Origin: Lactobacillales bacterium
Lineage (GTDB): Bacteria; Bacillota; Bacilli; Lactobacillales; Streptococcaceae
Length of the DNA: 64,000 bases
Direction of reading: 5' to 3'
NCBI GenBank assembly: GCA_031261705.1
Contig: JAISJD010000050.1
Location: 1-64,000 of the forward strand
Shown here: positions 8,169-46,176 of the stretch, in pieces
How the letters are laid out: each line of letters begins with the position of its first letter
Position numbering within the stretch: the stretch's first letter is position 1
The notes under the pieces: model-generated
The model's database searches: none
Told to the model about the DNA's origin: nothing
Seen by the model: only the letters and a program-made list of their open reading frames with translations
Position numbers and translations under genes: made by a program

Positions 8169-8213
8169 CATGAGCAGCTGAGGATGATACCCCAGTTGCT
8201 CATGATGATTTTT
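8169..8213. terminator. Bidirectional terminator ending the sugar island
   Basis: CATGAGCAGCTG (8169-8180) pairs with CAGTTGCTCATG (8193-8204). A T run follows on the plus strand and an A/T-rich flank lies on the other side. It separates the MBL-fold gene from the convergent glucosyltransferase gene. Confidence 0.75.
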
Positions 8214-11200: not shown

Positions 11201-12157
11201 AAAACCTAGACCCCATTTAGGCAACATTGGTGTTTTTCCCGTCACTTTTGCATACGCCCGCATGATTTGTTTTGGTTGTCCTGTCATTAAATAAAGTTCT
11301 ACATTTTCCTTCGAATAACGCCGTCCCTCCTGTATGTCATCACCATAATAAAACTCTAATTTCTCGCTAGACGCTTCAGAAAACGGATAGCCTCCGTCAC
11401 TATCTACTAATATTCCATAACCATTCGTTGACCACATGAATGGTCCACCAGCATTTCCTTGCTCCCCTGCCTGTACCGTTTTATTTGCATCACTCGTGTT
11501 GTCACGCTGTATTCCTAAATCGCCATTGCTAAAACTGATGCCATAAGCACCATAGATATGATCCTCTTGTCCCCTAATAAAACGGACACCGCCAGCAAAT
11601 ATCCCACCGGTAGTTGGTTCACTAAGCAAGACATTATCCGCATTATCCTTGAGAGTCATTCTAGCAGGTGTTTTACTGATTTCTAACGTACATTCTGATG
11701 TTTTTATAGAAATTAAATCATTTGTTTGATTCACCTCAGCACTTATCATAGAAAATGTAGCATTAGGGTCTACCATTGGTGTTGCGGGGCTATTTTCTAT
11801 GTTTTTCGGTCGTAAATTAATTTTCAACAAATTATTTTCCAGAGGATTAATTTCCAAATAATCAAATTCCTGTGTATTATTTGTACTGATTTTCAAAGTA
11901 ATTTGTTGATCTGTAATTACGACATCCGTAACATTTCCTAGCCCCGATTGGTCACTTAATTGTTTATATTCCTTCTTTGTCAACTTAGGAACAGTTGCTT
12001 TCTCCTGTTCCTTTGATAACTCCTCTTTATTTTCTTCTTGTTGTAAATCAGGAGTCACAGATTCTCCAAAAGTAAAGATTATATTTGTTGAAAAAGTTCC
12101 GAGAATAACAGTAGCTATTGTTATCCCTGAAAGGATAGATTTTACATAAGATTTCAT
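8213..12157 (-). CDS. Secreted GH31 6-alpha-glucosyltransferase (CtsZ-like)
   Basis: About 1314 residues with a signal peptide (hydrophobic 6-30). Family knowledge: CtsZ transfers glucose from the non-reducing end of maltooligosaccharides to form an alpha-1,6 cap, the first step of cycloalternan synthesis. Seen here: GH31 catalytic domain (about 240-720) with WWNDETDKVSSG (nucleophile Asp473) and WSGDIGVQW (acid/base Asp535), RVHGNLNQQRQPWYYG, and a DUF5110-like YDDDG strand near 770. Two CBM35-like domains follow (about 900-1165), then a C-terminal CBM61/CBM4-like module ending SPGGTTLLMDD. The order and motifs match the Bacillus globisporus CtsZ as I remember it. No cell-wall anchor is seen. 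The start at 12157 is favoured by spacing to GGAGG; an ATG at 12163 is possible. Last gene of the island. Confidence 0.88.
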   Translation of the reverse strand: MKSYVKSILSGITIATVILGTFSTNIIFTFGESVTPDLQQEENKEELSKEQEKATVPKLTKKEYKQLSDQSGLGNVTDVVITDQQITLKISTNNTQEFDYLEINPLENNLLKINLRPKNIENSPATPMVDPNATFSMISAEVNQTNDLISIKTSECTLEISKTPARMTLKDNADNVLLSEPTTGGIFAGGVRFIRGQEDHIYGAYGISFSNGDLGIQRDNTSDANKTVQAGEQGNAGGPFMWSTNGYGILVDSDGGYPFSEASSEKLEFYYGDDIQEGRRYSKENVELYLMTGQPKQIMRAYAKVTGKTPMLPKWGLGFSNFEWGINETEFREMVADYRAKSIPIDSYAFDYDWKFYGDKAHGADYGEFKWNTDNFPSASNGKLKSDMDELGIHMIGITKPRIVTQLEDGTVTEQGQEATANGFFYPGHNPYKDYFIPVTVQSIDPYKAEERQWWWQHSQDSFDKGIAGWWNDETDKVSSGSAQYWFGNFTTTNSSQALYEGQRQHTNNQQRVWQTARTFYPGAQRYATSIWSGDIGVQWEKGDVIDWANGVKEQPSTMLSTINLGQNKWGMDTGGFNANSGQILNPDPELYARWMAFSSLVPIFRVHGNLNQQRQPWYYGSTAEEMAKSSILWRYSMMPYLYTYERMAYDSGVGLVRPLTFDYPKDENVANLTNQWMFGDNFLVAPILEKNQKNKEIYLPEGNWIDYVRGDVYEGNQTIHYSVNTDNWSDTPMFVKQGTITPIQQPQNYTDEKQVDTIYLDTFPTTNQTTFTLYDDDGKTYNYEENDYSKQTLEVLKNEEGTSFTIKGKEGSFQSDTTSYIIQLHGEAAQTVMSNEQVIEQQGSLSELEQSQSLGFAVGKDVHGAVTYVKVPAQSTQDRTIQTSGQQEIPEQMTYEMTKASPFANSKEEQPIIIDNSVGQFNNDGAGVTLYPTVKSQGDYKIQLAYKNESEKNQTLSIFVNGHFSKQTILKPSTDFSEQNENVSLSAGKNVISYQVLEDNEDEASAVKLNKITLKDTPEVIKVEAENSQLSDDLSTNNNHWFYSGTGFVESLAQNNNQLKFNVDIPEEGEYTLNTRVANGTGSTQTIALQVNDGNPSSLSIPSPEQNWNIWKDNQIKVNLQKGKNTLIVSKNDTVTGNVNIDRFLISKQELSGPVESEKNLLDDGNFERTTDQSNNWSEWHPEGQNAAFGVDSGVGTNPPEAAKEGRQRAYFHASSAYKQSIHQQLKVNKDKKYEISAWVKLSNTQANTARMEVDKYDSSNGKYVNIENDGIWHYIKVKDVTVTTGNIDVGFYVDSPGGTTLLMDDVQLIAEN

Positions 12158-12207
12158 TCGCATTCCCTCCTTTTCCTCCTTATTTTTCTTATCCTATTCA
12201 TCCCCAT

Positions 12208-12241
12208 GAAAGAGAAGAGAATTTCCCCTCTCTCCTCTTTC
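12208..12241 (-). other. Intercistronic hairpin between the two secreted GH31 genes
   Basis: A 13-base-pair stem (12208-12220 with 12229-12241, one G-U pair) with an eight-base loop and no T run. It lies just before the Shine-Dalgarno of the downstream gene and may stabilise or process the shared mRNA. Confidence 0.6.
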
Positions 12242-12256
12242 GATTAACATTCCTAT

Positions 12257-15200
12257 TTATTTTTTCAATAATAAATTATCAAAGTTTATTCCTGTATGGG
12301 CATCATTGCCAAAGCTTACTGAAACGTTGTTTTGCCCATTTACTAAAGTTACTGGAACTTCCACTGTTGACCAAGTATCCCAGTTACTTGTTTTAGGAAA
12401 ATCAACTTTTTGTTCTTGTCCATTAATGGAAATATTTCTTGAGGCTGCTTCAGTACCCGCACTATAACGTAATACTAATTTATAGTTTCCAGCTTTTGCT
12501 GCCACTTCAAAATTAACTGAAGAACCTAGTTGATCAAAACCTGCAATAAACCCTTTCCCAGTATATCCTGGATGATCGTTTGCCCCTTGTACATCATTTA
12601 GTTCAGCAAATTCAGCTTCATAAGCTGCATGATTTGTTCCTAATAAGTGAACAATTTGCTCTTCTTGACTTCCTTCAACTTTAACATAAGTTAGATTTTG
12701 CTCTTTATCAAAATAATAACCTGTCGTTGCGGCATTAAAATCTGCCAAATCTTCGCATTTTGTAACTGTCTTATTCCCAATTTTCACTTGTTCAGGTTCA
12801 TTAGTAAATAATTGTAAAGTGACTTTCTCACCTATATCTGGAACCGTAACATCCACTTTCTCATTTTCATAATCTTCATTCATTGTAATATTTTGTGTCT
12901 TTTTACCATGAACATCATCATAAAATTGATAGCTACTTTCTCCATTAGGATACATACGGAAAGTTAAGTTTTGATAGCTGTCTAGCTTATTTCCAACATT
13001 TTTACCAAGTTGATACTCATCAGTTAAATTCATCGGGATAATTGCTCCGGATTTAACAAAAACAGGCATCGTGTCAATATCAGCATAATAGTTAAACGTT
13101 TTACCCCCTAAATGTGTTCCGCCATTCCATAAATCAATCCATTCTCCTTCTGGTAAATAAATGTCTTTTTCTCTTTGACCATCATTAACAATTGGTGCAA
13201 CAAGTAAATCATCCCCAAACATATATTGTTGATCTAATTGAAGAGTGTTTTTATCATCTGGATAATCCATAACCATTGGACGCATCATAGATTTTCCGTT
13301 ATCAGCAGTTTGTTTTGCTGCTGTGTAAATATATGGCAATAAATTCATACGTGTGTAAAAATATTTTTGAAAATTAGGGATAATTGATTGGTCGCCTGTC
13401 CGACTAGCAGCATTCCATGGGGAACGCTCTTCACTTGGAGAAGGATCAGACTTCTCAGAATGAAATTGCATTACAGGAGCAAAAGCAGCCATTTGAACTG
13501 AACGTTTATACAATTCTGAACTTGGATAATTTCCAGTAAATCCAGCTAAGTCCCAAGTCCAATAGGAAACACCTGATACAGCTGCACTTAATCCCGCTTT
13601 TACCGATGATCTGAAAGAAGCAAAATCAGAACGTTGATCCCCTGACCAATAAATTCCTGATGTTTGAGCCCCAGTTGTTCCAGATCGACTAAACGACACA
13701 GCGTTCTCACTAGCATCATCACTAAAAGTAGACGTCTTCGCAAAATCAAAATAAGTTGAAATATATTTATTTGGATAAAGGTTTCTCATCTCAAGTGATT
13801 TTTTGCCATTATAAAACGTTGCATCACGTCCCCACAACATTTCTCCACCATCTGTTTTGAAACCGTCAATACCAATATCATCAAGCAAATATTTTCGTTG
13901 TGAAGTCCACCAATCCACTGCGGCAGGATTAGTAAAATCTAATAAAATCCCATTCCCAAACCACTGACCTTGTGGGATACGATAAAGACTATCATCTTTA
14001 TTCACTGCACCATATTTTTGTTGAATCATATATTCCTTATCGTAATCTTTCTGTACATAAGGTTCTTCATCTTTTAATGCCGGAATTTGCCATAAGATTA
14101 AGTTCATTCCCGCATCATGTACGCTTTGAACCATTTTTTTTGGATCCTTCCATTTGCCATTAAAAGTGAAATCATCATAAGAGAAGATTCCGCCATTTTG
14201 TTTTGGTGTATAAGTTGCACCGTTCCAAATATAAAAAGTTTGTTCATCACTCCACTGTTCGAGCACAAATCCAGTCGCTGGAATATTGGATTGTTTTGCG
14301 TTATTTAATGCCTGTTGAACATCCTCATCTCGATCCCACTCATTTGCTGACATCCAAAGTCCGAATGCCCATTTTGGAAGTAAGGTTGTTTTTCCAGATA
14401 AACTTGTATAATTTTTTACAATATCATTTTGATTTTCTCCACTAATGATATAGTAATCCAACATACGATTCTTCTCACCATCATTATCTAATAAAAAACT
14501 GTATTTATCTCCAGCTTTTGATGCTAATTGAAATTGAGAATGAAAATCTGAATTAATAAACATTCCATATTTTTCACTACTAACAAAAAACGGAATAGCT
14601 AAATAAGTTCGTTTAGCTTCAGCTTGTGTTTGATACTCATTGTAAACATAAGTATCTACATCATTTCCACGCTGATTCAGCGAATCATAGCGTTCTCCAA
14701 ATCCATAAAATGCCTCATCTTCAGGTGTTTGGAAATTATTTTGAAATTGATTTACTACTGTTTGACCGTCTGTTAACCAGCCTAAACGTTGATTGTCATT
14801 ATATTCCGAGGTTAGCAATGTACCGTCTGCTTTATAAACTGACATACGATAAGGATTCTTTTGAACAACTACTTTCAATTTCTCAGTGGAAATAGTTAAT
14901 TCGCTATCAGTTTCAGCTAAATTGTAAATTGCTTTTCCTTCATGGCCTTTTTCATTCCCAGTTGGCGATAACTCGACACGGAAAATATCTTTGTCTTCAA
15001 ATGACAAATACACTTTTGGATTAAAATTGTTATTCGTAGCTGTTAAATCCAGTTCCACTTGTTTTTGATTATCCGCTACGCTATTAACATTTTGAGCATA
15101 TTCCCAGTCAGTTACTGCAAAAGAGAATGACTCGCTTGAAATCGGCGATTGATTATTGACTGATGCTTTAATCGTATAAGAAATCTTGTCTCCTTTTTGG

Positions 15201-15541
15201 AAAGAACCTAAGTTTACTTTCCAGTAAGTATTATTTCCGGAATTATAGTCATAGTCAGCTGTAACGTTAGGCTGGGACTGATCATTTTTACTCCATTCAA
15301 TCCAGATATTTTGACCTGCTTCAATTGGCCAGGTTGTAATATGCAGCCATACATCCTCTCCTGCTTTAGGATCTCTAGGACATCTTTCAGTAGGTTGAAC
15401 TGAATAGAGATCGTCATCTCCATAAGGTGCATGCCAAACTCCTTCTATTGCATAAGCTAACGAGCTAAATCCAAAAGCAGTTCCCACTAGGCAAATGCAC
15501 AAAAACGAAGTCATTATTTTATTCTTTACTTTTTTTCCCAT
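12257..15541 (-). CDS. Secreted GH31 3-alpha-isomaltosyltransferase / cycloalternan-forming enzyme (CtsY/CAFE-like)
   Basis: 1094 residues, essentially the length I recall for CtsY of Bacillus globisporus (1093). Signal peptide cleaved near AYA-31; the mature start IEGVWHAPYG closely matches the IDGVYHAPYG start I recall for that enzyme. The family moves an isomaltosyl unit to the 3-position and closes two units into the ring (cycloalternan). Seen here: N-terminal beta domains, GFGERYDSLNQRGN near 280, GFKTDGGEM (nucleophile Asp564), YWSGDQRSDF (acid/base Asp635), and a C-terminal CBM35 (about 965-1094). It shares long motifs with the cytoplasmic GH31 upstream, its probable hydrolytic counterpart. 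No wall anchor is seen. It is preceded by a 514-base gap, so it may have its own promoter. Confidence 0.9.
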   Translation of the reverse strand: MGKKVKNKIMTSFLCICLVGTAFGFSSLAYAIEGVWHAPYGDDDLYSVQPTERCPRDPKAGEDVWLHITTWPIEAGQNIWIEWSKNDQSQPNVTADYDYNSGNNTYWKVNLGSFQKGDKISYTIKASVNNQSPISSESFSFAVTDWEYAQNVNSVADNQKQVELDLTATNNNFNPKVYLSFEDKDIFRVELSPTGNEKGHEGKAIYNLAETDSELTISTEKLKVVVQKNPYRMSVYKADGTLLTSEYNDNQRLGWLTDGQTVVNQFQNNFQTPEDEAFYGFGERYDSLNQRGNDVDTYVYNEYQTQAEAKRTYLAIPFFVSSEKYGMFINSDFHSQFQLASKAGDKYSFLLDNDGEKNRMLDYYIISGENQNDIVKNYTSLSGKTTLLPKWAFGLWMSANEWDRDEDVQQALNNAKQSNIPATGFVLEQWSDEQTFYIWNGATYTPKQNGGIFSYDDFTFNGKWKDPKKMVQSVHDAGMNLILWQIPALKDEEPYVQKDYDKEYMIQQKYGAVNKDDSLYRIPQGQWFGNGILLDFTNPAAVDWWTSQRKYLLDDIGIDGFKTDGGEMLWGRDATFYNGKKSLEMRNLYPNKYISTYFDFAKTSTFSDDASENAVSFSRSGTTGAQTSGIYWSGDQRSDFASFRSSVKAGLSAAVSGVSYWTWDLAGFTGNYPSSELYKRSVQMAAFAPVMQFHSEKSDPSPSEERSPWNAASRTGDQSIIPNFQKYFYTRMNLLPYIYTAAKQTADNGKSMMRPMVMDYPDDKNTLQLDQQYMFGDDLLVAPIVNDGQREKDIYLPEGEWIDLWNGGTHLGGKTFNYYADIDTMPVFVKSGAIIPMNLTDEYQLGKNVGNKLDSYQNLTFRMYPNGESSYQFYDDVHGKKTQNITMNEDYENEKVDVTVPDIGEKVTLQLFTNEPEQVKIGNKTVTKCEDLADFNAATTGYYFDKEQNLTYVKVEGSQEEQIVHLLGTNHAAYEAEFAELNDVQGANDHPGYTGKGFIAGFDQLGSSVNFEVAAKAGNYKLVLRYSAGTEAASRNISINGQEQKVDFPKTSNWDTWSTVEVPVTLVNGQNNVSVSFGNDAHTGINFDNLLLKK

Positions 15542-16055
15542 TCTATCATCTCTTTCTCGTTTTATAATCTAAGGATTGTCTGTCATAAAGAGGATTCTTT
15601 CTAAAAATTATTTATTTGTAGCATTTAATTGAGTTGTATTCTTGATACAGTTCTTTTTATCTTTGAAATTACAGCAAATAATTTCCCAACTCTATTTTAT
15701 TTAAATTTTCAGATAATTCTCGACAAAATATGTAGAAAAATATCATTCATTTATGTCTGCAACAAAATATTAGAATATACTCTTTATGATAATAAATACT
15801 GATAGTTTCTTCTTTGATTACCATTTCCTTTCCTTATTTATTTTTACATTGAAATGCTCTAAACAATCGTTTATTCACCTCAAAATTAGTTACTTAGAAA
15901 AATTTTATTTAATGAATACCTCCTCTCCTTTTTTTGATTTTCCTAAGCAACTTATATTATAAAGAGCAAATACTATATTTTTTTTGATATTTCTTAACTG
16001 ACACTTGAAACAACTTTTTTCAATTATTAAATACATCATCCTCTCTTATCCCAAA
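15542..16055 (-). promoter_or_regulatory. 514-base AT-rich leader before the secreted GH31 genes
   Basis: No credible gene. On the minus strand the best sigma-A match is TTGTCG-17-TAAATA near 15694-15722, with only modest similarity. TAAACAATCGTTTA at 15860-15873 is an imperfect palindrome with LacI-operator flavour, but it lacks the GTAAARCGTTT seen at the regulator's own promoter. The length suggests a separate promoter or leader for the export-enzyme pair. Confidence 0.35.
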
Positions 16056-19000
16056 CTAAACTTCAATCAATTCAACCTCGATTTCAAAATCCACACCTGT
16101 TACATGAACGCAACTTTCCTCTTTCTTCTCAACGATCACATGAATAGTATTCCCTAAATAATCATCAATCTCTGTCTCAAATGAAGATTTCGCTACCACA
16201 AGAAGCTTCATATTTTGATAATTTTCTAAATCATTGCCAATAAACGTTCCAAGGTTCTTTTCTTTTCCAAGATTCAGTGGAATCACTGAATTTTCTTTGA
16301 TGAACACTGGAATTGAGTCCATTGCTGCTTCTGTAATTATTTCTTGACCGCCTTCTTTGACTTCTTTCGTCCAAAAATCAACCCATTGCCCTTCAGGTAG
16401 ACGTACATTTCTTCGTACAGCACCTTCTTTAATAATTGGAGCAACTAATAGATTTTCGCCAAACATATATTGGTCGTAGGTTCCAAGAAAGTCATCCACT
16501 GAATATTCTAAGACCATTGCTTTCATTAATGGTTGATAATTTATAACTGAACGTTTTGACTGCCAATAAATATAAGGCAGAAGATTCATTCGGATATTCG
16601 CAAATTTTCGATAAATGGAAATTGCCTCCTTATTGTTTGTTCTTTCGGCAATATTCCAAGGCGTACGATCTTGATTAAACTCTCCTTTACTTTCTGCATG
16701 GTATTGCATAATTGGACAAAACGTTGCCATTTGTGCAGATCGAATAAACAACTCCGCAGTTGGAATATCGCCATTGAAACCGCCTAAATCCCACCCCCAG
16801 AAAATAACTCCGCTCATCCCAGCATTAATTCCTGCCTTTAAAGACCGCTGGAAAGCATCAAAGGTTGACCGTTCATCTCCTGCCCAGTGCGCTGGAAATT
16901 GTTGACAGCCTGTATAGCCAGAACGACTAAAGGTAATTCCCTTGTTTTGTTTAGCAAATTGATAATAAGAATGAATATACTCATTTGGGTACTGATTTCT
17001 CATAGTCGCACCAGTTTTCCCGTTGCTAAACTGAACATTCTGACCGAATACCATTTCTCCACCGTCCGTCTTAAAACCGTCCACTCCAATATCTAACAAA
17101 TATTGGCGTTTATTAAACCACCACTTTTTCGCCTCTTCATTTGTAAAATCAAGTAATAAGCTATCTGTATACCAATTTTCAGGAATACGATAAGGGGAAC
17201 CATCTTCATTTTTTACTGCATAGCCTTTTTTAAGCATATACGCTTCATCTCTATCTTTTAGAGGATGACGTTGTTGATTTAGATATTTTTCAATGGGTAC
17301 CTGCCATAAAATAAATTTCAATCCATTTTTATGACAATCCTCCACCAATTTCTTCGGATTTGGCCAACGTCCCCATTCTGGAAAATAGACTTGGTCGTAG
17401 GAATAACTTTCCTCTGGGTCAATCAAAGAGTATTGGGCATCATTCCACATGTAATAAGTCGCTTCATCACTCCATTGCTCGAGTACGATAACTGTTGCAG
17501 GAATCTGTAAATCATTCGTCTTTTCAATTTCCCTTCTGACAATGCTATCCCTATCCCAATTATTTGAAGACATCCACGGACCTAACGCCCAGACTGGGAG
17601 CATTGCTGGTTGACCACTTTTTGTGATAAATTGACCAACCATCTCTTTTATTGTTCCCGTAAACAAAACAAAGTTAAATTGAGGTTTCCCAGCTTCAAAT
17701 ATCACGGTAATGGAAACTTGACCACTCTTGGTATTTTGTAAATCAAATTTCGTATAGTTTTCAGTTTCAACAAAAATACCGTAGCTTTGATTTGTAACAA
17801 AATAAGGCATTGGCATATATGTTTTTGTTCCTTGATCACGATATTGGTTATAAACAAAACAGTCAATAATATTTCCTGTTTGATTTATTTCATTGTAACG
17901 TTCACCAAATCCAAAATAGCTCGCCTTTTCCGAATCCAGATAATTCATCGTAAAACTTGAAATTCCTTGACCCAACAGACCGCTAATTACAAACGGCTTT
18001 TCTTTTACCAAATGAATTTCTTGATTTCGGTAATTTAATGCAAACGTCTCCACATCTAAGTAAATCCATGCAGTATTTATCTTTTGATTTTCTATGGCAG
18101 GCTCCACTTGTGTAAGAAAAAATTCATTTTCAGCCATCAAAAGAAAAAGAGGTGCGACAGAATTTACTATTTGAAACACATTGCTATCCGAGGTTGACCC
18201 AAGAAATTCTATTTTTTCGACGTTCCAAAGCTCACTAAGTTCTAAAATATAATTTTCTGATTTAAACGTTTCAGTTGAAAAATAATAGTTTTCTTGATTC
18301 ATTGAAGCATTTGATAAAATCGTAAAACGAAAAATATTTTGAACCTCATCAACTAATTGTCCTTCAAAAACTTCTTCCCCAATATGAAGATAAGGTACAT
18401 TTTCTGTGCCAAGTACTTGAACATTTATATCAAAATATTGGTGAGTCAACGGATAATGTGGCAACCGCTCACAGAACAAGGTTTCATACACATTTCCATT
18501 CCCAAGAGGTTTATGAATAAACTCTACTGGTTGATTCCCGATTTTTTCTGCCATATATCCTTGTAGCAATTGAATCAATTCACAGGCAATAAAATTTTTT
18601 TCGGGAGCATTCAATGCTTTATCTAAGTATAATTTTGATTTTTCTAATTCAAATTTCTCTGTAAAATAGATTCCTAATAAAGCAAGATTCATTGGTTCTT
18701 CACTATTTTTAGAAACTAACTCTTCTTGTGCTGAAACCACAATCAAATCCTCTGGTGCAAAGACACCAAAAGGTAAAACACCCAATAGCTCGTCAAAAGT
18801 GACAGCCATTGTAGATTGTTTTCCTACTAAACTTCCACCTTTAATCATATGGTCGAAAAGATAGTCCCGAATTTGTGTCATTGTTTGTTGCAGCTGTTGA
18901 TAGCCAAAGTTATTCTTAATTTCTTGTAAGCAGGCATAATAGTTCGTTAAATTTGAAGTATAAATATCCATTTCCTCTCCAAATAAGTTTGCTTGTGAAT

Positions 19001-19220
19001 CAGACCAATGATTCGTGATGAATTGAATAATTTCTTTATCTTTCTCTGTAATATCCATTTGAAGCTGAGCCTTTAAATATAGATAAAACGATAAAATCGG
19101 TAACTCAGCGGTTTCAAGACAAAATTTATCCAGCGCATTAACTGCTTCTGACGCCTTACCAGACTTTATTAAATTTAAAATTTCAAAAAGTTCTACAACA
19201 TTGTTCGTTATTTCTCGCAT
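16056..19220 (-). CDS. Cytoplasmic GH31, probable cycloalternan-degrading enzyme (CADE-like)
   Basis: 1054 residues without a signal peptide. The catalytic half is a clear paralogue of the secreted isomaltosyltransferase: GFGERYNEINQTGN near 438, LEQWSDEATYYMWN near 580, GFKTDGGEM (nucleophile Asp719) and HWAGDERSTF (acid/base Asp782). In Listeria and Trueperella such a paralogue hydrolyses the alpha-1,3 bonds of cycloalternan, and that role is inferred here from cytoplasmic location and operon context. Residues 1-260 are a helical extension not normally part of GH31, and there is no C-terminal CBM35. The gene follows the binding-protein gene after a terminator-like hairpin; its Shine-Dalgarno is AAGGAGC. 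Confidence 0.82.
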   Translation of the reverse strand: MREITNNVVELFEILNLIKSGKASEAVNALDKFCLETAELPILSFYLYLKAQLQMDITEKDKEIIQFITNHWSDSQANLFGEEMDIYTSNLTNYYACLQEIKNNFGYQQLQQTMTQIRDYLFDHMIKGGSLVGKQSTMAVTFDELLGVLPFGVFAPEDLIVVSAQEELVSKNSEEPMNLALLGIYFTEKFELEKSKLYLDKALNAPEKNFIACELIQLLQGYMAEKIGNQPVEFIHKPLGNGNVYETLFCERLPHYPLTHQYFDINVQVLGTENVPYLHIGEEVFEGQLVDEVQNIFRFTILSNASMNQENYYFSTETFKSENYILELSELWNVEKIEFLGSTSDSNVFQIVNSVAPLFLLMAENEFFLTQVEPAIENQKINTAWIYLDVETFALNYRNQEIHLVKEKPFVISGLLGQGISSFTMNYLDSEKASYFGFGERYNEINQTGNIIDCFVYNQYRDQGTKTYMPMPYFVTNQSYGIFVETENYTKFDLQNTKSGQVSITVIFEAGKPQFNFVLFTGTIKEMVGQFITKSGQPAMLPVWALGPWMSSNNWDRDSIVRREIEKTNDLQIPATVIVLEQWSDEATYYMWNDAQYSLIDPEESYSYDQVYFPEWGRWPNPKKLVEDCHKNGLKFILWQVPIEKYLNQQRHPLKDRDEAYMLKKGYAVKNEDGSPYRIPENWYTDSLLLDFTNEEAKKWWFNKRQYLLDIGVDGFKTDGGEMVFGQNVQFSNGKTGATMRNQYPNEYIHSYYQFAKQNKGITFSRSGYTGCQQFPAHWAGDERSTFDAFQRSLKAGINAGMSGVIFWGWDLGGFNGDIPTAELFIRSAQMATFCPIMQYHAESKGEFNQDRTPWNIAERTNNKEAISIYRKFANIRMNLLPYIYWQSKRSVINYQPLMKAMVLEYSVDDFLGTYDQYMFGENLLVAPIIKEGAVRRNVRLPEGQWVDFWTKEVKEGGQEIITEAAMDSIPVFIKENSVIPLNLGKEKNLGTFIGNDLENYQNMKLLVVAKSSFETEIDDYLGNTIHVIVEKKEESCVHVTGVDFEIEVELIEV

Positions 19221-19235
19221 TCTTATAGCTCCTTA

Positions 19236-19295
19236 TAAAAAAACATTCAGGCACTCCACGTTGAAATATTCTTCTCATGGTATACCTGAATGTCA
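19236..19295 (-). terminator. Terminator-like attenuator between binding-protein and GH31 genes
   Basis: On the minus strand ACATTCAGG (19285-19293) pairs with CCTGAATGT (19243-19251) and is followed by seven T, then by the Shine-Dalgarno of the next gene. It probably lets the importer genes, especially the binding protein, be expressed above the downstream enzymes. Confidence 0.7.
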
Positions 19296-19312
19296 AACTT
19301 CTTTTTTAGTTA

Positions 19313-20557
19313 TTATTCAAATTGTTTTTGTAATTTTTCTAGTGCTTCTTTTGCAGTTTCTTTTCCAAGTAAAACATTTTGAAATTCTTGGTCTGCAGCA
19401 TCACTTAATTTTGCCCAATTATCTGTAACAGGTGGTAAAATTAAGTAATCTAATGAATTAAACACTGCTTGACGATTTTCTGGTGGTGTTTGTTTCAAGT
19501 AAGTATCTAAGATAGTCTTATCATTAGAAATTGGCAAATTCCAAGAGTTATCTACACGAATTTTAGCTGCTTCTTCCCCAATACTCATGAATTTAGAAAA
19601 TTTATAGGCGGCATCTGCTTCCTTCGTTTCTTTTGAAACAACTAAACCTTCCGCAAAGAAATGCGTTGCTTTTTGAGTATTTCCAGCTTCTACTTGAATA
19701 TCCCAATTAAACGGTGCATCTTTAAATTGACCAAACATCCAAATACCTGTATGAACCATGCCGAGTTGACCATTCATAAATAAATCCTCTGATTTTTGAC
19801 CAGACATTTCGGCAGGACTTGGAGAAACCTTGTACTTGTCTACTAAATCTACCATGTGTTGCAACGCTTCAACATTCTTTGAACTATCAATTGTCAATTT
19901 GCCTTTTTCATCATAAATTTGTCCGCCATTTTGAGCCGCAACCTTGAAAAATTCATTCATTGTAACTGGTGAGTAAGTACCGTAAATATTTTCCTTTGTA
20001 TTTGTTAATTTCTCTGCTGCTTCAATCTCATCTTCCCATTTCCAATCCTCTGCAGGATAGCTAATTCCAGCCTTATCAAACATATCTTTATTGTAAATTG
20101 TCACTACATTTGAGAAGCTTTCAGTTAACCCAAGCTGTTTCCCTTTATATTTATAGGCATCAAAAGCCTTCGTATTTACCTTTGATAAATCTAAATCTTT
20201 ATCTTTTTCAACTCTATCCGTTAAATCTAACAGTTTTCCTTTATTCGCATAAGAAACAAAATTTTCATAATTCATTTCAAAAACATCCGGTGCTTTTCCA
20301 CCAGCTAATAGCGTTTGAAGTTTCGTAAAATACGTATCAAAAGGTGCCATTTCAACATTTACTTTTATTGTTGGATTTTCTTCTTCAAATGCTTTGACCA
20401 TTTCATTCAATTGCTTTTCAAAGTCTGGAGTTGCTGAGTAACTAAAATACTTGATTTCTGTTTTTTCATTGTCATCGCTTGCTTCTTTTTTTGACCCGCA
20501 ACCAGCTAAGCCCAATAATCCTACCGCTGCTGCTCCTACTAACATCCATTTCTTCAT
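19313..20557 (-). CDS. Sugar ABC transporter substrate-binding lipoprotein
   Basis: 414 residues. Signal peptide with lipobox LAGC (Cys20), so it would be anchored to the outer face of the membrane. The mature start (IKYFSYSATPDFEKQLNEMVKAFEEENPTIKV) is typical of family 1 (MalE/MsmE-like) oligosaccharide-binding proteins. It is followed by the hairpin attenuator and preceded by both permeases with good ribosome sites, so it is part of one importer. By context the ligand is cycloalternan or a related alpha-glucan oligosaccharide; this is inference. Confidence 0.9.
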   Translation of the reverse strand: MKKWMLVGAAAVGLLGLAGCGSKKEASDDNEKTEIKYFSYSATPDFEKQLNEMVKAFEEENPTIKVNVEMAPFDTYFTKLQTLLAGGKAPDVFEMNYENFVSYANKGKLLDLTDRVEKDKDLDLSKVNTKAFDAYKYKGKQLGLTESFSNVVTIYNKDMFDKAGISYPAEDWKWEDEIEAAEKLTNTKENIYGTYSPVTMNEFFKVAAQNGGQIYDEKGKLTIDSSKNVEALQHMVDLVDKYKVSPSPAEMSGQKSEDLFMNGQLGMVHTGIWMFGQFKDAPFNWDIQVEAGNTQKATHFFAEGLVVSKETKEADAAYKFSKFMSIGEEAAKIRVDNSWNLPISNDKTILDTYLKQTPPENRQAVFNSLDYLILPPVTDNWAKLSDAADQEFQNVLLGKETAKEALEKLQKQFE

Positions 20558-20579
20558 AATAAATCCCCTCCAAAGTTTT

Positions 20580-21398
20580 TTATTCTTTCATTCCGCTCAT
20601 CGTCATTCCTTGAATGAAATATTTTTGAGCGAAAAGATAAACCGCAAGTATTGGAATTACACTGATGACTACCGCAGCCATAAATAAATTCCAGTTTGTT
20701 GTCCGTTGACCTTGTAGCATAGCAAGTCCGAGTGGCAAGGTCGCCATTTCACGACTACTTGATATAATCAAAGGCCATAAATAATTATTCCACGATTGCA
20801 TAAAAGTAAAGATAGATAAAGTCGCAAGTGTTGGCTTCATAAGCGGAAGCATCACCTTAAAACAAACGGTAAAGTGGTTTGCACCGTCCATAAATGCAGC
20901 TTCCTCTAATTCTTTTGGAATGGAAAGAAAGGCTTGCCTCATCAAAAATACACCGAACACTGCAAAAATATTTGGTAGTATCAAGCCTTGGTAAGAATCT
21001 AACCAGCCAAGATTTTTTAATAAAATAAACTGTGGAATCATGATAACCTGTGTTGGAATCATCTGTGTTGCCAAGTACAATAAGAAGATTTGATCTCTTC
21101 CTTTGAAATGTAGCCTAGAAAACGCATAGGCGGACATAGTTGCCACTAGAATAGTTCCAAGAGTCGTGAGCACTGCTACAATCACCGAGTTCAATAAGAA
21201 TCGTAGCATTGGAAATTTATCGACTACCTCCCGATAATTATCAAATGTCACTGGGTCAGGAATAAATTTTGGTGGAAAAACCATTGTTGCTCCGCCATCC
21301 TTCAATGAGGTAGAAACCATCCAGATGAATGGAAGAATCATGATGAAACTTCCAGCAATCAATATAGCGTATCTTCCAACTTTTTTTACTATTTTCAT
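20580..21398 (-). CDS. Sugar ABC transporter permease (MalG/MsmG type)
   Basis: 272 residues with six predicted membrane helices. The EAA loop that docks the ATPase is visible as EELEEAAFMDGANHFTVCFKVMLPLMKP (about 165-192). It ends in QKYFIQGMTMSGMKE, the usual tail of the second permease of carbohydrate importers (CUT1 group). Two bases from the other permease gene. Confidence 0.92.
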   Translation of the reverse strand: MKIVKKVGRYAILIAGSFIMILPFIWMVSTSLKDGGATMVFPPKFIPDPVTFDNYREVVDKFPMLRFLLNSVIVAVLTTLGTILVATMSAYAFSRLHFKGRDQIFLLYLATQMIPTQVIMIPQFILLKNLGWLDSYQGLILPNIFAVFGVFLMRQAFLSIPKELEEAAFMDGANHFTVCFKVMLPLMKPTLATLSIFTFMQSWNNYLWPLIISSSREMATLPLGLAMLQGQRTTNWNLFMAAVVISVIPILAVYLFAQKYFIQGMTMSGMKE

Positions 21399-21399
21399 A

Positions 21400-22269
21400 T
21401 TAGTTATTTCTCCCTTCTCCCCACATTTGTACTAGTGAGACAATGAAGATGATTAGGAATAGAATCCAACTCATTGCTGAAGCTTTACCCATTTCAAAAT
21501 AATTAAAGGCTGAATTGTAAATATTTTGTACCATAACCGTTGTAGAATTTCCGGGTCCGCCACCTGTCATAATATTTACCTGGTCAAATACTTGGAACGA
21601 GTTAATCAGGCTAATCATTGACACGAAAAATGTCGTCGGTTTTAACATTGGAAGTGTGATACTCCAAAATTGATGCCAACCATTTGCCCCATCAATTGAG
21701 GAAGCTTCATATAACGACGGTGAAATTCCTTGTAAGCCTCCCAGATAAAGCACCATGATAAAACCAATATCCTTCCAAACAGAAGTAATAATCACGGCAA
21801 TCATAGCCGTTTTAGGATCTGTCAACCAACTAGGTCCATGAATCCCAATCAAAGAAAGGAAATAATTAATAAGTCCATATTGTGGGTTGAACAACCATTT
21901 CCAAACGAGAGAAACTGCTACCCAGCTTGTTACTACTGGCAAGAAATAAATCCCTCGAAATAATGTTTTTCCAACAAGCTTAGAATTTAAAAGTAAGGCA
22001 ATCATTAACCCAATAATCATGACGCAAGGCAGATAGCCAACAATAAATAGCACTGTATTTTTCAACCCAGCCCAGAATGTCGCATCTTTAAAAAGGTCTG
22101 TATAATTTTTTATTCCTATAAAATTCATTGGGTTTAATAAATCCCAATCCGTAAAACTTATGACTAAGGAAGAGATAATAGGAAACGCAATAAAAGTTAA
22201 AAATCCGAGTAAACTTGGTCCTAAAAATATCAGTACCCAAAGTCGATTATTTTTCTTTGAACCAACCAT
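21400..22269 (-). CDS. Sugar ABC transporter permease (MalF/MsmF type)
   Basis: 289 residues with six membrane helices and the EAA loop SLYEASSIDGANGWHQFWSITLPMLKP near 195-220. Partner of the downstream permease. The ATG at 22269 is chosen because AAGGAGGG sits just before it; a longer reading upstream overlaps the ATPase gene and lacks a ribosome site. It starts two bases after the ATPase stop. Confidence 0.92.
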   Translation of the reverse strand: MVGSKKNNRLWVLIFLGPSLLGFLTFIAFPIISSLVISFTDWDLLNPMNFIGIKNYTDLFKDATFWAGLKNTVLFIVGYLPCVMIIGLMIALLLNSKLVGKTLFRGIYFLPVVTSWVAVSLVWKWLFNPQYGLINYFLSLIGIHGPSWLTDPKTAMIAVIITSVWKDIGFIMVLYLGGLQGISPSLYEASSIDGANGWHQFWSITLPMLKPTTFFVSMISLINSFQVFDQVNIMTGGGPGNSTTVMVQNIYNSAFNYFEMGKASAMSWILFLIIFIVSLVQMWGEGRNN

Positions 22270-22270
22270 G

Positions 22271-23392
22271 TTATCCCTCCTTAGTAGAAAGCAAAATGTT
22301 TTCTTCTGTTTCCTTATCAAAGAAACTTACCTTATTCATATCAAAAGCAAATTGAATACTTTCTCCCGGTTTTTTGAAATCTCTGGCATCAACTTTTGAA
22401 ACAAATTCAGTTTCTCCAAGTGTGGCGTAGATAATCGTTTCTGCCCCGAGTAATTCAGAAACCATTACCTTTGAGTGAACAACGGAATCATTAAAGGTTT
22501 CAATCGCAATTTGTTCTGACTTAATATCTTCGGGTCGAATCCCTAATGTGACTTCTTTTCCGTCATAACCCAAAGCTAGTAATCGTTTCATGTACCCTTC
22601 TGGAATTTTCAACTTCACCCCTTCTTCATTTTCAGCATAACCATTCTTGATTGTTACTTTGAAAAAATTCATCGCCGGACTACCAATGAAACCAGCCACA
22701 AATAAATTTTTAGGGTTATTATAAAGCTCTTGCGGAGTACCAATCTGTTGAATTTTTCCACTATTCATAATAACAATGCGGTCTGCTAGGGTCATTGCTT
22801 CCGTTTGGTCATGAGTAACATAAATTGTTGTTGAACCAATCCGTCTATGGAGCTTAGCGATTTCAGCACGCATAGATACCCGAAGCTTAGCATCCAGATT
22901 AGATAGAGGTTCATCCATTAAAAAGACTTTGGCATCACGTACCATGGCTCGTCCCATTGCCACACGTTGCCGTTGCCCACCTGATAATTCACCTGGTTTT
23001 CGTTTTAAATATTCTTCTAAGCCAAGAACCTTAGAAGCTTCCTCCACTCTTCGTTTAATTTCATCTTTTGGATATTTTCTTAATTTCAATCCAAACGCAA
23101 TATTTTCAAAAACAGTCATATGCGGATAAAGTGCATAATTTTGAAAAACCATGGCAATTTCTCTATTTTTAGGAGCTACATCATTCATTATCTTCCCATC
23201 AATACTAAATTCTCCACCTGAAATTTCTTCTAGCCCTGCAATCATTCGAAGTGTCGTTGATTTTCCACAGCCTGAGGGGCCCACAAACACGATAAACTCT
23301 TTCTCCTGCACTTCTAAATTAAAATCTTTCACCGAATATTCAGGGTTGTTTGGATATTTTTTATCTACATGTGATAATTTCATTTCAACCAT
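22271..23392 (-). CDS. Sugar ABC transporter ATP-binding protein (MsmK/UgpC type)
   Basis: 373 residues. Walker A GPSGCGKST, Q-loop FQNYALYPHMTV, signature LSGGQRQRVAMGRAMVR, Walker B VFLMDEPLSNLDAKL and switch His in YVTHDQTEAM, followed by the C-terminal TOBE/MalK regulatory domain. Many lactic acid bacteria share one MsmK among several importers; here the ATPase sits inside the operon, so it is probably dedicated. The start at 23392 follows AAGGAGG and overlaps the end of the GH31 gene by eight bases. Confidence 0.92.
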   Translation of the reverse strand: MVEMKLSHVDKKYPNNPEYSVKDFNLEVQEKEFIVFVGPSGCGKSTTLRMIAGLEEISGGEFSIDGKIMNDVAPKNREIAMVFQNYALYPHMTVFENIAFGLKLRKYPKDEIKRRVEEASKVLGLEEYLKRKPGELSGGQRQRVAMGRAMVRDAKVFLMDEPLSNLDAKLRVSMRAEIAKLHRRIGSTTIYVTHDQTEAMTLADRIVIMNSGKIQQIGTPQELYNNPKNLFVAGFIGSPAMNFFKVTIKNGYAENEEGVKLKIPEGYMKRLLALGYDGKEVTLGIRPEDIKSEQIAIETFNDSVVHSKVMVSELLGAETIIYATLGETEFVSKVDARDFKKPGESIQFAFDMNKVSFFDKETEENILLSTKEG

Positions 23393-25649
23393 GATTTTCC
23401 TCCTTAAAATTTTCAACATACGCTAATTCAAGTAGCATTTCTAGTAAGTCTCCAGAAACAAGGCTGAGTAACTCATTCAAGCGTTTGCCATAATTTTTTT
23501 CCTGTTTGAACACTTCGATTATTTTTTCTTTAAGCTGATAGTCTATTTCTGCTTGATTCAAGCGCTTAAAAAGCTCAGCTGAAATATCAACTTTCTTATC
23601 TAACGTTATATTTTTTAATGAAAATTCATTGAAACTATTTTCTGATTTCATTTCAACTGTTGAACCTGAACCAATGAGTTCAAATATATGAGTTCTTTTG
23701 CTCGGAATAATATGATATGGATCAAAAATTTCTAATTTTAGCTGTTTCTTTTCCCAATCCAAGCAAACTACTGTCTCCGCCCGATGTCCGTTGCTATCCT
23801 CAATTAATTTAAATTGATTAGATTTTCCTAAAAAGATTTTCCAGTTCAAATGAAGAGGTAGCTGCGTTGCTTTCGTTACTGTGGGAGTTGCATCTAGCGG
23901 AAGAATTGCTCCAGATTTTGCAAAAACTGGCATTTCATCCTTTCTTCGATAAATTTTCATCTTCGTGTTTCCTTCATAGGTCATTCCAGAAAATAAATCA
24001 TACCAACTCCCAGTTGGAAACCAAACTTCCACACAACCTAATTTTGTTTGATGATTAGTATGCTGTGTAATGGGTGAAACGATTAATTCACTTCCAAATT
24101 GATATTCATTTTTCGCTTCATATGCTTTTTCATTCTCACTATCAAGATAGTACATGGGCAAAATTAGTGGAATCCCGTCATCATGATTTCTAACATTCAT
24201 CGTATAGAGATAAGGAATCATCGCATGACGAAACTGCATGATTTGACTCATCGCTTTCTCTGTTTCTAAGGAAAATGCCCAGGGTTCCTTGCTATTAAAT
24301 GAACTTGCGCTACTATGCAATCGATTAATTGGACTAAAAACACCAAATTGTAGCCACCTTAATGACAATTCTTCATCTGAATACCCTTTCATATGTCCGC
24401 CGATATCATGACTCCACCAGCTATAACCAATATTAGAAGCTGTTGCAGTGAAATATGGTTGAAAATCAAGCGATTCCCAAGTAACAATAGTATCTCCAGA
24501 AAAACCAATCGGATACCTATGACTTCCAGCACCGGCATATCTCGATAAAATCAATCCTGCTTCATTTCGCTCTTGATTATCTAGGTAATGATAAAAATTC
24601 AATGCCCATAATGGATCAACACCCGTTGAATTACTTTGATTTCCTTGCTGCCAATCAATCCACCAAAAATCCACTCCCTCATCTTCAAGAGGATGATGAA
24701 CCTCATCAAAATACGCTTCTCTAAAATCTTTGTTATTAAAATCAAACAAAGCTGGCTCTTCGAGTGAAACGTTTAACTTTAAACGTGAAGAAATTCGTTC
24801 ATAAGCATCTTCAAAAGCTCTGATTCCATCTGCCGGATGTACATTAAGGGTTGTTTTTAGTCCTAAATCATGTAATTTTTTCAAAAATCTTTCTGGCTTT
24901 GGAAAGAACTCCCTATTCCATGAATAACCCGTCCAGCCACTTCCAAACCGTTCTGGAATCTCTCTTTTATGCCAGTCCATATCAATCACACTAACCGATA
25001 ACGGCACTTTTTTTTTCTTAAACTTATTCATTAACTCAAGATAAGTTTCCTCTGTATAAGGCCAAAATCTACTCCACCAGTTTCCCAAAGCATATCTAGG
25101 AATTATCGGAACCGCACCAGTGAGTTTATAATAATCTTTTAAAGCTCGTCTATACTCATGACGATAGCCAAAGAAATATAAATCTTTTCCTGTTGATTGG
25201 TTCTCTGCAAATTCACCATTTTCTAATTGAAGATAGGAGCCTGAATCATCTAATATCGAAAAGCCCCCTCGAGAAATAATTCCATCCTCAAGCTCGGTCT
25301 TTCCGTCAATCCCGTCAAGTGTTTGGGTCGTTCCTTTTAAAGTCTCTATCTCATCTCCATAGGTCCAACGGTTGTTATAATCTGAAAGATTAGCTTTCAT
25401 TTCTACAAATAAGCTACTAGGTGAGAATTCTCCATATTTATAGTACAAATGTAGCTGACTCGTAATAATCTGAATGCCCATTTCATCTTCCAGTAAGTCA
25501 AAATTTGTTGAAGAAAATTGGCGATTTTGAATTATTTGCGTTTTCTCATCAATAAAATTTCCATTTTTTTCATATTCCATTCGGATCAAACTATCGGTCA
25601 ATACAGTGAAACGATAATCCTTTCCTTTTATAACTTGTGTCTTTTCCAT
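23385..25649 (-). CDS. Cytoplasmic GH31 alpha-glucosidase
   Basis: 754 residues, no signal peptide. Nucleophile in WWIDWQQG (Asp332) and acid/base in IGFSGDTIVTW (Asp386), followed by SWWSHDIGGHMKGY, all GH31 hallmarks. It resembles the intracellular alpha-glucosidases of Listeria and lactobacilli found next to alpha-glucan importers. In this island it probably hydrolyses the linear products, such as isomaltose or nigerose-linked units, left when the ring is opened; the linkage preference cannot be read from sequence. An ATG at 25649 four bases after the LacI stop is chosen. The ORF opens six codons earlier at a GTG. Confidence 0.87.
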   Translation of the reverse strand: MEKTQVIKGKDYRFTVLTDSLIRMEYEKNGNFIDEKTQIIQNRQFSSTNFDLLEDEMGIQIITSQLHLYYKYGEFSPSSLFVEMKANLSDYNNRWTYGDEIETLKGTTQTLDGIDGKTELEDGIISRGGFSILDDSGSYLQLENGEFAENQSTGKDLYFFGYRHEYRRALKDYYKLTGAVPIIPRYALGNWWSRFWPYTEETYLELMNKFKKKKVPLSVSVIDMDWHKREIPERFGSGWTGYSWNREFFPKPERFLKKLHDLGLKTTLNVHPADGIRAFEDAYERISSRLKLNVSLEEPALFDFNNKDFREAYFDEVHHPLEDEGVDFWWIDWQQGNQSNSTGVDPLWALNFYHYLDNQERNEAGLILSRYAGAGSHRYPIGFSGDTIVTWESLDFQPYFTATASNIGYSWWSHDIGGHMKGYSDEELSLRWLQFGVFSPINRLHSSASSFNSKEPWAFSLETEKAMSQIMQFRHAMIPYLYTMNVRNHDDGIPLILPMYYLDSENEKAYEAKNEYQFGSELIVSPITQHTNHQTKLGCVEVWFPTGSWYDLFSGMTYEGNTKMKIYRRKDEMPVFAKSGAILPLDATPTVTKATQLPLHLNWKIFLGKSNQFKLIEDSNGHRAETVVCLDWEKKQLKLEIFDPYHIIPSKRTHIFELIGSGSTVEMKSENSFNEFSLKNITLDKKVDISAELFKRLNQAEIDYQLKEKIIEVFKQEKNYGKRLNELLSLVSGDLLEMLLELAYVENFKEENHG

Positions 25650-25653
25650 AGTC

Positions 25654-26670
25654 TCACTCTCCCACACTTCTCACCGAATTTCTTTCAATTATTGTTCCTT
25701 GAATAAAGAATTTTTCTTTGAATTTCTTTGGGTCTTTGCATTGAATGGCACTCATTAATACCTCAATGGATTTTTCCCCTTTTTCTTTTTGATTTAACTC
25801 AACTGTTGTCAATTGTGGGTCTAAAAAGGAAGCAAAGAAAGAATTATCAAAGCTTATAATTGATTTTCCTTGAATCCCATTTTTCTTCCAAGCAGTCATA
25901 AGATTTCCAGCGAGTAAATCTGAATTAGCAAGAACTGCGGTGTATTCATCAAAGCGAGACACCATGTTTTCTAACTCATTCTCATCAAAAAACAGTGTTT
26001 GAGGAACTGATAGCTGACTTTCCTCCAAAGCTTTTTTATATCCAGTAAAACGCTCATGGATTACACCAATCGTATCTTTTCCCAAGCTAGGTGAAAAAAC
26101 TGCAATTTTTTTATGTCCTTTTCCAATAACATAGCTTGTTGCAAGATAGCTTAGCTCTGCATCATTGTTATAAACATAGTATCTTGGGTATTTCATTCCT
26201 TTTTGTTCTCTTGAAGAGTATGTATCGACAAAAACTATAGGCGCCTTAATGAGTTCACATAATTCATCATGAATCGACTGAATAGCACCAATAACGATAC
26301 ACCCATCAAAAGTCCAGTTTTGTTGAATGCTCTGAATATCTGAAATATCCGAAAATCCATGAACCAAAATAAACTTCTTATTTCTTTTGCTAGCTTTTTC
26401 AATTCCTGTTAGGATATCTGAAAGAAATGGATCACTAAAATCCACCTCATCTTTCGGAGAAAAATACAGGATACCAACCATTCCTGAGTGCATATTGACT
26501 AATGAACGTGCATTCAGATTAGGAGAATAATTATATTTTTCTACCACTGCATGAATTTTATCAATCGTTTGCTGTGTCGCCTTGTTAGGCTTGTCATTCA
26601 GCACATTAGAAACAGTAGCAATACTCACGCCTGCCTCTCGTGCAATTTCCTTTATCGTTATATTTTTCAT
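25654..26670 (-). CDS. LacI-family transcriptional regulator
   Basis: 338 residues. Helix-turn-helix and hinge: ITIKEIAREAGVSIATVSNVLND, then YNYSPNLNARSLV, followed by a periplasmic-binding-protein-like ligand domain. First gene of the sugar island, so its own expression is tied to the genes it probably controls. Two near-identical palindromes, GTAAARCGTTT, flank its promoter. In Listeria and Arthrobacter cycloalternan loci the regulators I recall are ROK or other types, so LacI control would be a difference. The inducer is not known from the sequence. Confidence 0.9.
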   Translation of the reverse strand: MKNITIKEIAREAGVSIATVSNVLNDKPNKATQQTIDKIHAVVEKYNYSPNLNARSLVNMHSGMVGILYFSPKDEVDFSDPFLSDILTGIEKASKRNKKFILVHGFSDISDIQSIQQNWTFDGCIVIGAIQSIHDELCELIKAPIVFVDTYSSREQKGMKYPRYYVYNNDAELSYLATSYVIGKGHKKIAVFSPSLGKDTIGVIHERFTGYKKALEESQLSVPQTLFFDENELENMVSRFDEYTAVLANSDLLAGNLMTAWKKNGIQGKSIISFDNSFFASFLDPQLTTVELNQKEKGEKSIEVLMSAIQCKDPKKFKEKFFIQGTIIERNSVRSVGE

Positions 26671-45348: not shown

Positions 45349-46128
45349 ATGAAAAAAAGTTTATTTATTAAAATCGCACTTACTGCTATTGTTAGCACAA
45401 GTTTGGCAGGTTTAATCTATGACAATGTGGAAGCAAGTGCTGAACATAAATTACAACAGGAAGAAGCAAGTGTAAAAGTTGTAAAAGAGAAAACACCAAA
45501 GAAAAGTTCCATCAAATTTGAAGAACCAAATGAAGTAAAAAAAGAGGCAAAGGCATCAGAATCAGTGAATATGGCAGCTTCTACCGCTTCTGCAGAACAA
45601 TCGACTGTTGCTACACCAGCTCCACAAACTCAAGCTTCAACTAGTTCATCTGTAACAGATAGCAATTCAGCAGCCACTTCATATACAACGTCAACACCAC
45701 AACCAACATTACAACCAGATACAATGTATATCGCAGGTACTGCTATTGCCTATGCAAATGGTGGGCAAGGAAGTGGGCAAGCAATAATTGACAGCAATCC
45801 AAATGGAATCATTTCAACTTGGGGTGGTGCTCCTACTCAATCAGGAACAGATGGCATGAACACACATTTCATCGGGCATAATGTCGGCGCCTTTACTTGT
45901 CTTTTATCTGTGGGCAACGGCTCACAAATTGTTGTTACAGACGGAAATGATACGCCAACAACTTATATTGTTAACTCTGAAGCAACAGTCGATACAAATG
46001 GTATAGACCTTAGCACAGGCCAAAATCTATGGAGTCAAATTACAGGCACTGCTGGTGGTGAACGTATCACCTTGCAAACATGCCTTAATTCTACACAACG
46101 CTTAATCGTCTTTGCTCAAGCGGCTTAA
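45349..46128 (+). CDS. Secreted sortase-fold protein
   Basis: 259 residues. Signal peptide (about 1-30), then a charged helical stretch and a Ser/Thr/Ala/Pro-rich linker to about residue 125. The C-terminal domain looks like a sortase: THFIGHNVGAF supplies His177, ERITLQTC supplies the TLxTC Cys245, and RLIVFAQ the Arg251. It ends three residues after that motif, with no C-terminal membrane segment. A classical housekeeping sortase has its anchor before a short linker; here the signal appears cleavable, so it may be released or wall-bound. The enzyme activity is not proven by the motifs alone. Confidence 0.78.
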   Translation: MKKSLFIKIALTAIVSTSLAGLIYDNVEASAEHKLQQEEASVKVVKEKTPKKSSIKFEEPNEVKKEAKASESVNMAASTASAEQSTVATPAPQTQASTSSSVTDSNSAATSYTTSTPQPTLQPDTMYIAGTAIAYANGGQGSGQAIIDSNPNGIISTWGGAPTQSGTDGMNTHFIGHNVGAFTCLLSVGNGSQIVVTDGNDTPTTYIVNSEATVDTNGIDLSTGQNLWSQITGTAGGERITLQTCLNSTQRLIVFAQAA

Positions 46129-46131
46129 AAT

Positions 46132-46176
46132 AAAAAAGATAGACTTTCCAACTAATGTTGTGAGTCTATCTTTTTT
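46132..46176. terminator. Bidirectional terminator
   Basis: AAAAAAGATAGACT (46132-46145) pairs with AGTCTATCTTTTTT (46163-46176). It serves the sortase-fold gene and the small convergent gene. Confidence 0.9.

Follow-up and report, generated by a model that had tools for sequence, protein, structure and literature searches.

The DNA analysed here is a 64,000-nucleotide stretch of a Lactobacillales bacterium contig (JAISJD010000050.1, positions 1 to 64,000; hereafter the window). On its plus strand, at 45349..46128, lies a gene with an ATG start and 259 codons plus stop that the open reading frame list and the Pfam family PF04203 identify as encoding a sortase-family protein (hereafter the window protein), which is very probably exported. 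This is no chance frame, because the same genome holds a paralog of 42% identity and 79 related loci lie in named genomes. Just downstream, a stem-loop followed by a T-rich tract (46132..46176, plus strand; −21 kcal/mol, z −6.5) forms a probable terminator, which a separate terminator scan with a loop limit of 8 missed. One flanking gene encodes a TetR-type regulator; on the opposite strand lie a MetQ-like lipoprotein gene and the genes of its transporter, named from their open reading frames. These neighbours are not informative and, together with the terminator right behind the gene, indicate a single-gene unit. The promoter scan returned 4 sites where 5.7 were expected, all on the minus strand, and we claim no promoter. 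No pilus gene, conserved partner or substrate gene was found beside it. Elsewhere, positions 8213-25667 of the window encode an ABC sugar transporter and a LacI-type regulator surrounded by four enzymes of glycoside hydrolase family 31, two of them very large and equipped with carbohydrate-binding modules; the family 31 assignments were confirmed by Pfam and the other names come from reading the open reading frames.

The window protein begins with an N-terminal export signal (residues 1–31, 45349..45441), recognised by its hydrophobicity and by the pattern of a possible cleavage site after A-S-A(31). Residues 32–124 form a linker that is 38% Ser/Thr/Pro overall but has two distinct parts: residues 32–68 (45442..45552) are Lys/Glu-rich (49% K/E, 16% S/T/P), whereas residues 69–124 (45553..45720) are Ser/Thr/Pro-rich (52% S/T/P). 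The original prediction of a long Ser/Thr/Pro linker of about 90 residues was therefore right about the length, and right about the composition for the second part only. The sortase domain, delimited by PF04203, AlphaFold2, Foldseek and VIA, was modelled as residues 118–259 (45700..46125), and the Pfam stretch within it covers residues 158–257. Its catalytic positions, on the plus strand like all these segments, are His177 (45877..45879), Cys245 (46081..46083) and Arg251 (46099..46101), the last being Asn in most relatives. All three residues of the predicted triad can be read from the DNA and sit at sortase triad positions, His177 and Cys245 by alignment and profile comparison and Arg251 by alignments.

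The domain matches PF04203 with 42.1 bits (E 8.4e-11, cut-off 26.6), and it stays above the cut-off in the whole-genome scan; the same model matches all 28 members of alignment A1 at E ≤ 0.01. The window protein alone has no sequence match in the PDB, and the family profile reaches sortases there only at E 0.004 or worse. AlphaFold2, given 72 relatives, modelled residues 118–259 with a pLDDT of 97.1 and a pTM of 0.91, and an Asn-type relative from Enterococcus raffinosus gave 96.7 and 0.91. A Foldseek search of the PDB with the model yielded 60 matches at E ≤ 0.001 (best E 6.1e-7), of which the best 50 are all sortases, from classes A, C and E. VIA-align placed 129 of 992 chains at Z ≥ 8, and again the best 50 are all sortases, including Corynebacterium diphtheriae SrtF at 13.5; the top scores, 15.7 to Streptococcus suis SrtC1 (rmsd 1.9 over 118 residues) and 14.8 to Listeria SrtA, we count as tied. 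The model and its structural matches give the eight-stranded sortase barrel, and the non-sortase fold for which the original prediction had allowed did not appear. The modelled fold does not single out a class. A profile comparison aligns the His and Cys of the window protein with those of six canonical sortases of the host genome. The observation that the protein ends right after its catalytic Arg is accurate, since eight residues follow Arg251, but the oddity attached to it falls away: such an end is probably ordinary for sortase domains.

The window protein has many relatives. Across 84,980 species, each represented by one genome, 79 loci were confirmed; they come from Enterococcus, Vagococcus, Pilibacter, Lactococcus, Lacticaseibacillus, Alkalibacillus, Clostridiaceae (some Clostridia) and termite-gut MAGs. 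The search pattern was built on the region of the catalytic His, which favours members that conserve it. Within the taxonomic family of the host, 15 of 196 genomes have a match, and a class-wide scan of 398 genomes found strong matches in only 5, a further 19 giving short matches (E 1e-5 to 1e-3) that we treated as ordinary sortases. Several insect- or termite-associated genomes (G949, G954 and G955) carry four or five copies each. The host genome has two, the second being the paralog (L010:1492-2286, minus strand), which has Asp at the catalytic Arg position and lies upstream of a Fer4_19 ferredoxin-like gene. Two members (L185, L186) reside on megaplasmids of about 0.9–1.2 Mb in Enterococcus raffinosus and E. 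gilvus. Two others, L056:450-8722 and L063:2249-4114, are lipoprotein-like and head pilus-type loci. A phage origin was considered and dropped: viral contigs gave nine pattern stretches and no confirmed relative, and searching phage records for the E. raffinosus domain gave none.

When 13 other Bacillota sortases are included in the tree, the 45 family rows group together as a single branch (support 100/99, bootstrap not settled), so that the phylogeny proposed as a check sets the window protein in a family apart from those 13. The Pfam and NCBIfam copies searched hold no name or model of its own for this family, and nothing on it was found in the available portions of the literature on replaced or missing sortase Arg, sortase classes, secreted sortases, class F, or ApbE with sortase. 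Rows identical over the last 130 residues were removed from the 91-row alignment used below; alignments A2 and A3 (71 of 81 rows kept, plus the window protein) left out three loci with partial N-termini, rows of at least 90% identity and loci L001-L038. Judged by sequence, the window protein is one member of a separate family that mostly has Asn for Arg, and itself belongs to the Arg-bearing minority.

Our preferred reading, which we hold to be rather more probable than not, is a surface-displayed cysteine transpeptidase or peptidase, sortase-like, with a putative substrate that differs from those of housekeeping sortases. The original prediction was instead of a protein secreted without a membrane anchor. 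Its hydrophobic stretch comprises residues 4–24 (21 residues), followed by V-E-A(29) and A-S-A(31). The peak 19-residue mean hydrophobicity is 2.02, compared with 1.66–2.29 in five exported proteins of the window and, just above it, 2.05–2.81 in six canonical sortases of the host genome. Export is very probable; the value, inside the signal-peptide range and a little under the canonical sortases, favours a cleavable signal, and an anchor-free protein is a possibility rather than a finding.

Full release, with cleavage after Ala31 and action on the surface of the producing cell or of other cells, is somewhat unlikely, though less so than the other alternatives. N-terminal hydrophobicity, resembling that of the other exported window proteins, and the A-x-A motif favour a cleavable signal, with residue 31 as a plausible end point; in Pilibacter L039, the nearest relative, A-Q-A stands at the corresponding site. 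An A/V-x-A motif after the hydrophobic core, by our own heuristic rule rather than a trained predictor, occurs in 27 of 88 family rows compared with 18.8 ± 2.9 in 200 shuffles (shuffle maximum 27). If the signal were cleaved and nothing bound the window protein to the wall, it would be released, which counts against display. However, by the same heuristic 61 of the 88 rows lack a site, and some relatives carry a lipobox or parts of a wall-binding type, so release is not the common design. Lipobox-like motifs were found in 3 of 88 members by a script rule and by eye also in L063, the motif of L062 sitting inside its hydrophobic core. Among ten members chosen for a full-length Pfam search, Ig-like families score over the cut-off in four (L042, L060, L074, L117), SH3 domains occur in two (L090, L076) and DUF5648 in one (L089); three (L061, L098, L113) have no second Pfam family over the cut-off. 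The conserved part is thus the catalytic domain, and the variable part the manner of holding it outside the cell. Such swapped N-terminal parts read more like cell-surface display than free release. Of the soluble transpeptidase in the original prediction we therefore keep the sortase fold with its three residues and not the solubility, since the lipobox, Ig-like, SH3b and DUF5648 parts of relatives point rather to display.

As the original prediction had it, no LPxTG substrate lies nearby: our own pattern scan found no C-terminus with an LPxTG-type sorting signal in window open reading frames of at least 60 amino acids, and the 14 PF00746 anchor-domain matches over the cut-off lie elsewhere in the host genome. 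That genome encodes seven other sortase proteins, including SrtA-, SrtC- and SrtD-like ones. Six of the seven canonical host sortases score top or above 100 bits with class C or D models, and the SrtA-like L001 reaches 68.7 bits, with class C. These seven sortases and 14 anchor-domain matches imply that LPxTG anchoring is already served in this genome. On host contig C29, a 596-amino-acid protein with two tandem sortase domains (L003:424-2211, minus strand) adjoins a gene ending in an LPQTSG-type signal.

A helper role in pilus or LPxTG machinery, for example as a specialised housekeeping sortase, seems improbable. L056 and L063, both from one termite-gut MAG and close to the window protein phylogenetically, are each followed directly by a class C type sortase gene, and in L056, which sits in a pilus operon, pilins follow. 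However, these are the only two members so placed among the neighbourhoods read, L056 has Leu at the Arg position, and around the window gene, which ends in a terminator of its own, there are no pilus genes.

We also doubt that the window protein simply belongs to class F. An Enterococcus raffinosus protein of 57% identity is annotated in RefSeq as 'class F sortase' (another relative is simply 'sortase'), so one family member is filed there, and the sortase fold is common to both. Weak NCBIfam matches among 72 members include class F in 42 (NF033748, best E 3.1e-6), class GN in 52 and YLP in 20, besides others. By contrast, the window protein itself matches none of the NCBIfam sortase models (class A, C, D, E and so on) at E ≤ 1, NF033748 (cut-off 166 bits) included, and in the genome search with NF033748 it was absent even at E ≤ 10. 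Class GN ('marine', TIGR03784) is the best-shared match, about as weak as class F: its best E is 7.9e-6, but the family scores far under the 158-bit cut-off. We compared class F through four class-F-like Bacillota proteins, which keep the Arg, have a long Cys-to-Arg stretch and group with other sortases, outside the window family. With SrtA and SrtC (classes A and C) the window protein shares the fold and the Cys, His and Arg positions; nevertheless, identity in the structural alignments is 18–24%, their family models do not match, and five residues separate Cys from Arg, compared with seven to eight or more in the class A and C enzymes of the host genome. The sequence comparisons lead us to treat it as a sortase of an unassigned family rather than to count it as established in class F.

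In known sortases the Arg equivalent to Arg251 stabilises substrate and intermediate, and this third catalytic residue is commonly taught as indispensable. The column of position 251 is Arg in all 13 other sortases. Of the 91 family rows, 73 carry Asn there and 15 Arg, while Leu, Asp and Glu occur once each. All 91 rows share Cys245, Glu238, Asp198, Tyr206, Thr157, Gly160 and Phe182. The same is true of His177, Asp168 and Thr172, although these three are partly built in by the His-region scan pattern. Five residues separate the Cys from position 251, ungapped in nearly all rows (seven in Alkalibacillus, six in L031). With Asn there in so many rows, and Asp in the host-genome paralog, the Arg is not essential within this family, which counts against our preferred reading. 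Asn for Arg has a precedent: PMC6998099, citing Malik and Kim 2019, reports it for actinobacterial class F enzymes.

In the family-only tree the window protein falls in a 15-row set of 14 Arg rows and one Leu row (support 96/98); the fifteenth Arg row, L031, is a long, distant branch. Adding an outgroup places the Arg-bearing rows in two separate branches, one of 8 rows and one of 5, bootstrap not settled. As the Arg rows form one branch in the first tree and two in the second, we make no claim for a single origin of the Arg, whether ancestral or regained.

The suggestion that the fold is catalytically reused, for example in a binding or scaffolding protein, is possible but quite unlikely and found no positive support: Asn, Asp, Leu or Glu replaces Arg in 76 of 91 rows, and Actinoplanes lacking all four sortases of class F, the class with Asn for Arg in actinobacteria, is reported to have shown no phenotype (the third residue of those four is not stated in the paper), but the window protein retains all three residues, and 91 of 91 rows keep Cys245 and, partly by construction, His177, which would be unexpected in a decayed enzyme.

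One limb of the Arg branch has a recurrent gene partner. In a subclade of 10 Arg rows (support 100/100), eight members lie downstream of a same-strand ApbE-family gene (L043, L073, L082, L084, L087, L089, L092, L095), identified by Pfam in four and by similarity in the remaining four. The gaps are −17 to 43 bases in seven; in L089 the gap is 761 bases, with a ChW-repeat gene between. L039:11583 and L081 are the subclade members without an ApbE neighbour, and none was found among the remaining 74 scanned family open reading frames (Fisher p 1e-9, the related genomes not being independent). ApbE attaches flavin to exported proteins. FMN_bind proteins, considered as its substrate, are present in only 3 of the 7 genomes searched, and we name no substrate. 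The ApbE gene of the host genome has no sortase beside it within the 3.8 kb read, and the accessible portions of literature naming ApbE and sortase showed no link between them. Neighbour clustering over 79 loci gave no family-wide operon partner; the clusters that recurred widely were general ones, transporters for example.

For the surface-displayed sortase that we favour, a mechanism can be proposed. The window protein would be exported, its sortase domain held outside the membrane on a spacer of about 90 residues that could reach into or through the cell wall. Cys245 would attack a surface protein or a secreted one at a peptide bond, assisted by His177 and Arg251, and form a thioester acyl-enzyme, from which the acyl group would pass to an amine or to water. 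Substrate and place of action would differ from those of the housekeeping sortases of the host genome. Most relatives would rely on Asn for the part that Arg plays here.

It is possible, and we put it forward tentatively, that the family constitutes an undescribed Bacillota sortase class, displayed outside the membrane on interchangeable spacers and having Cys-His-Asn as its usual active site. The window protein would belong to its Arg branch; in that branch, one limb would be paired with ApbE, and its possible task is the maturation or positioning of flavinylated surface proteins. The ApbE gene pair is a first lead to a substrate. As far as the alignments indicate, what emerges beyond the single protein is a sortase family, so far uncharacterised, that switches between Asn and Arg. 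Asn or Arg at one site, with Cys, His and Glu constant, amounts to a natural experiment on the role of the third residue, and the family suggests that Enterococcus and gut Lactobacillales may process surface proteins at a distance from the membrane.
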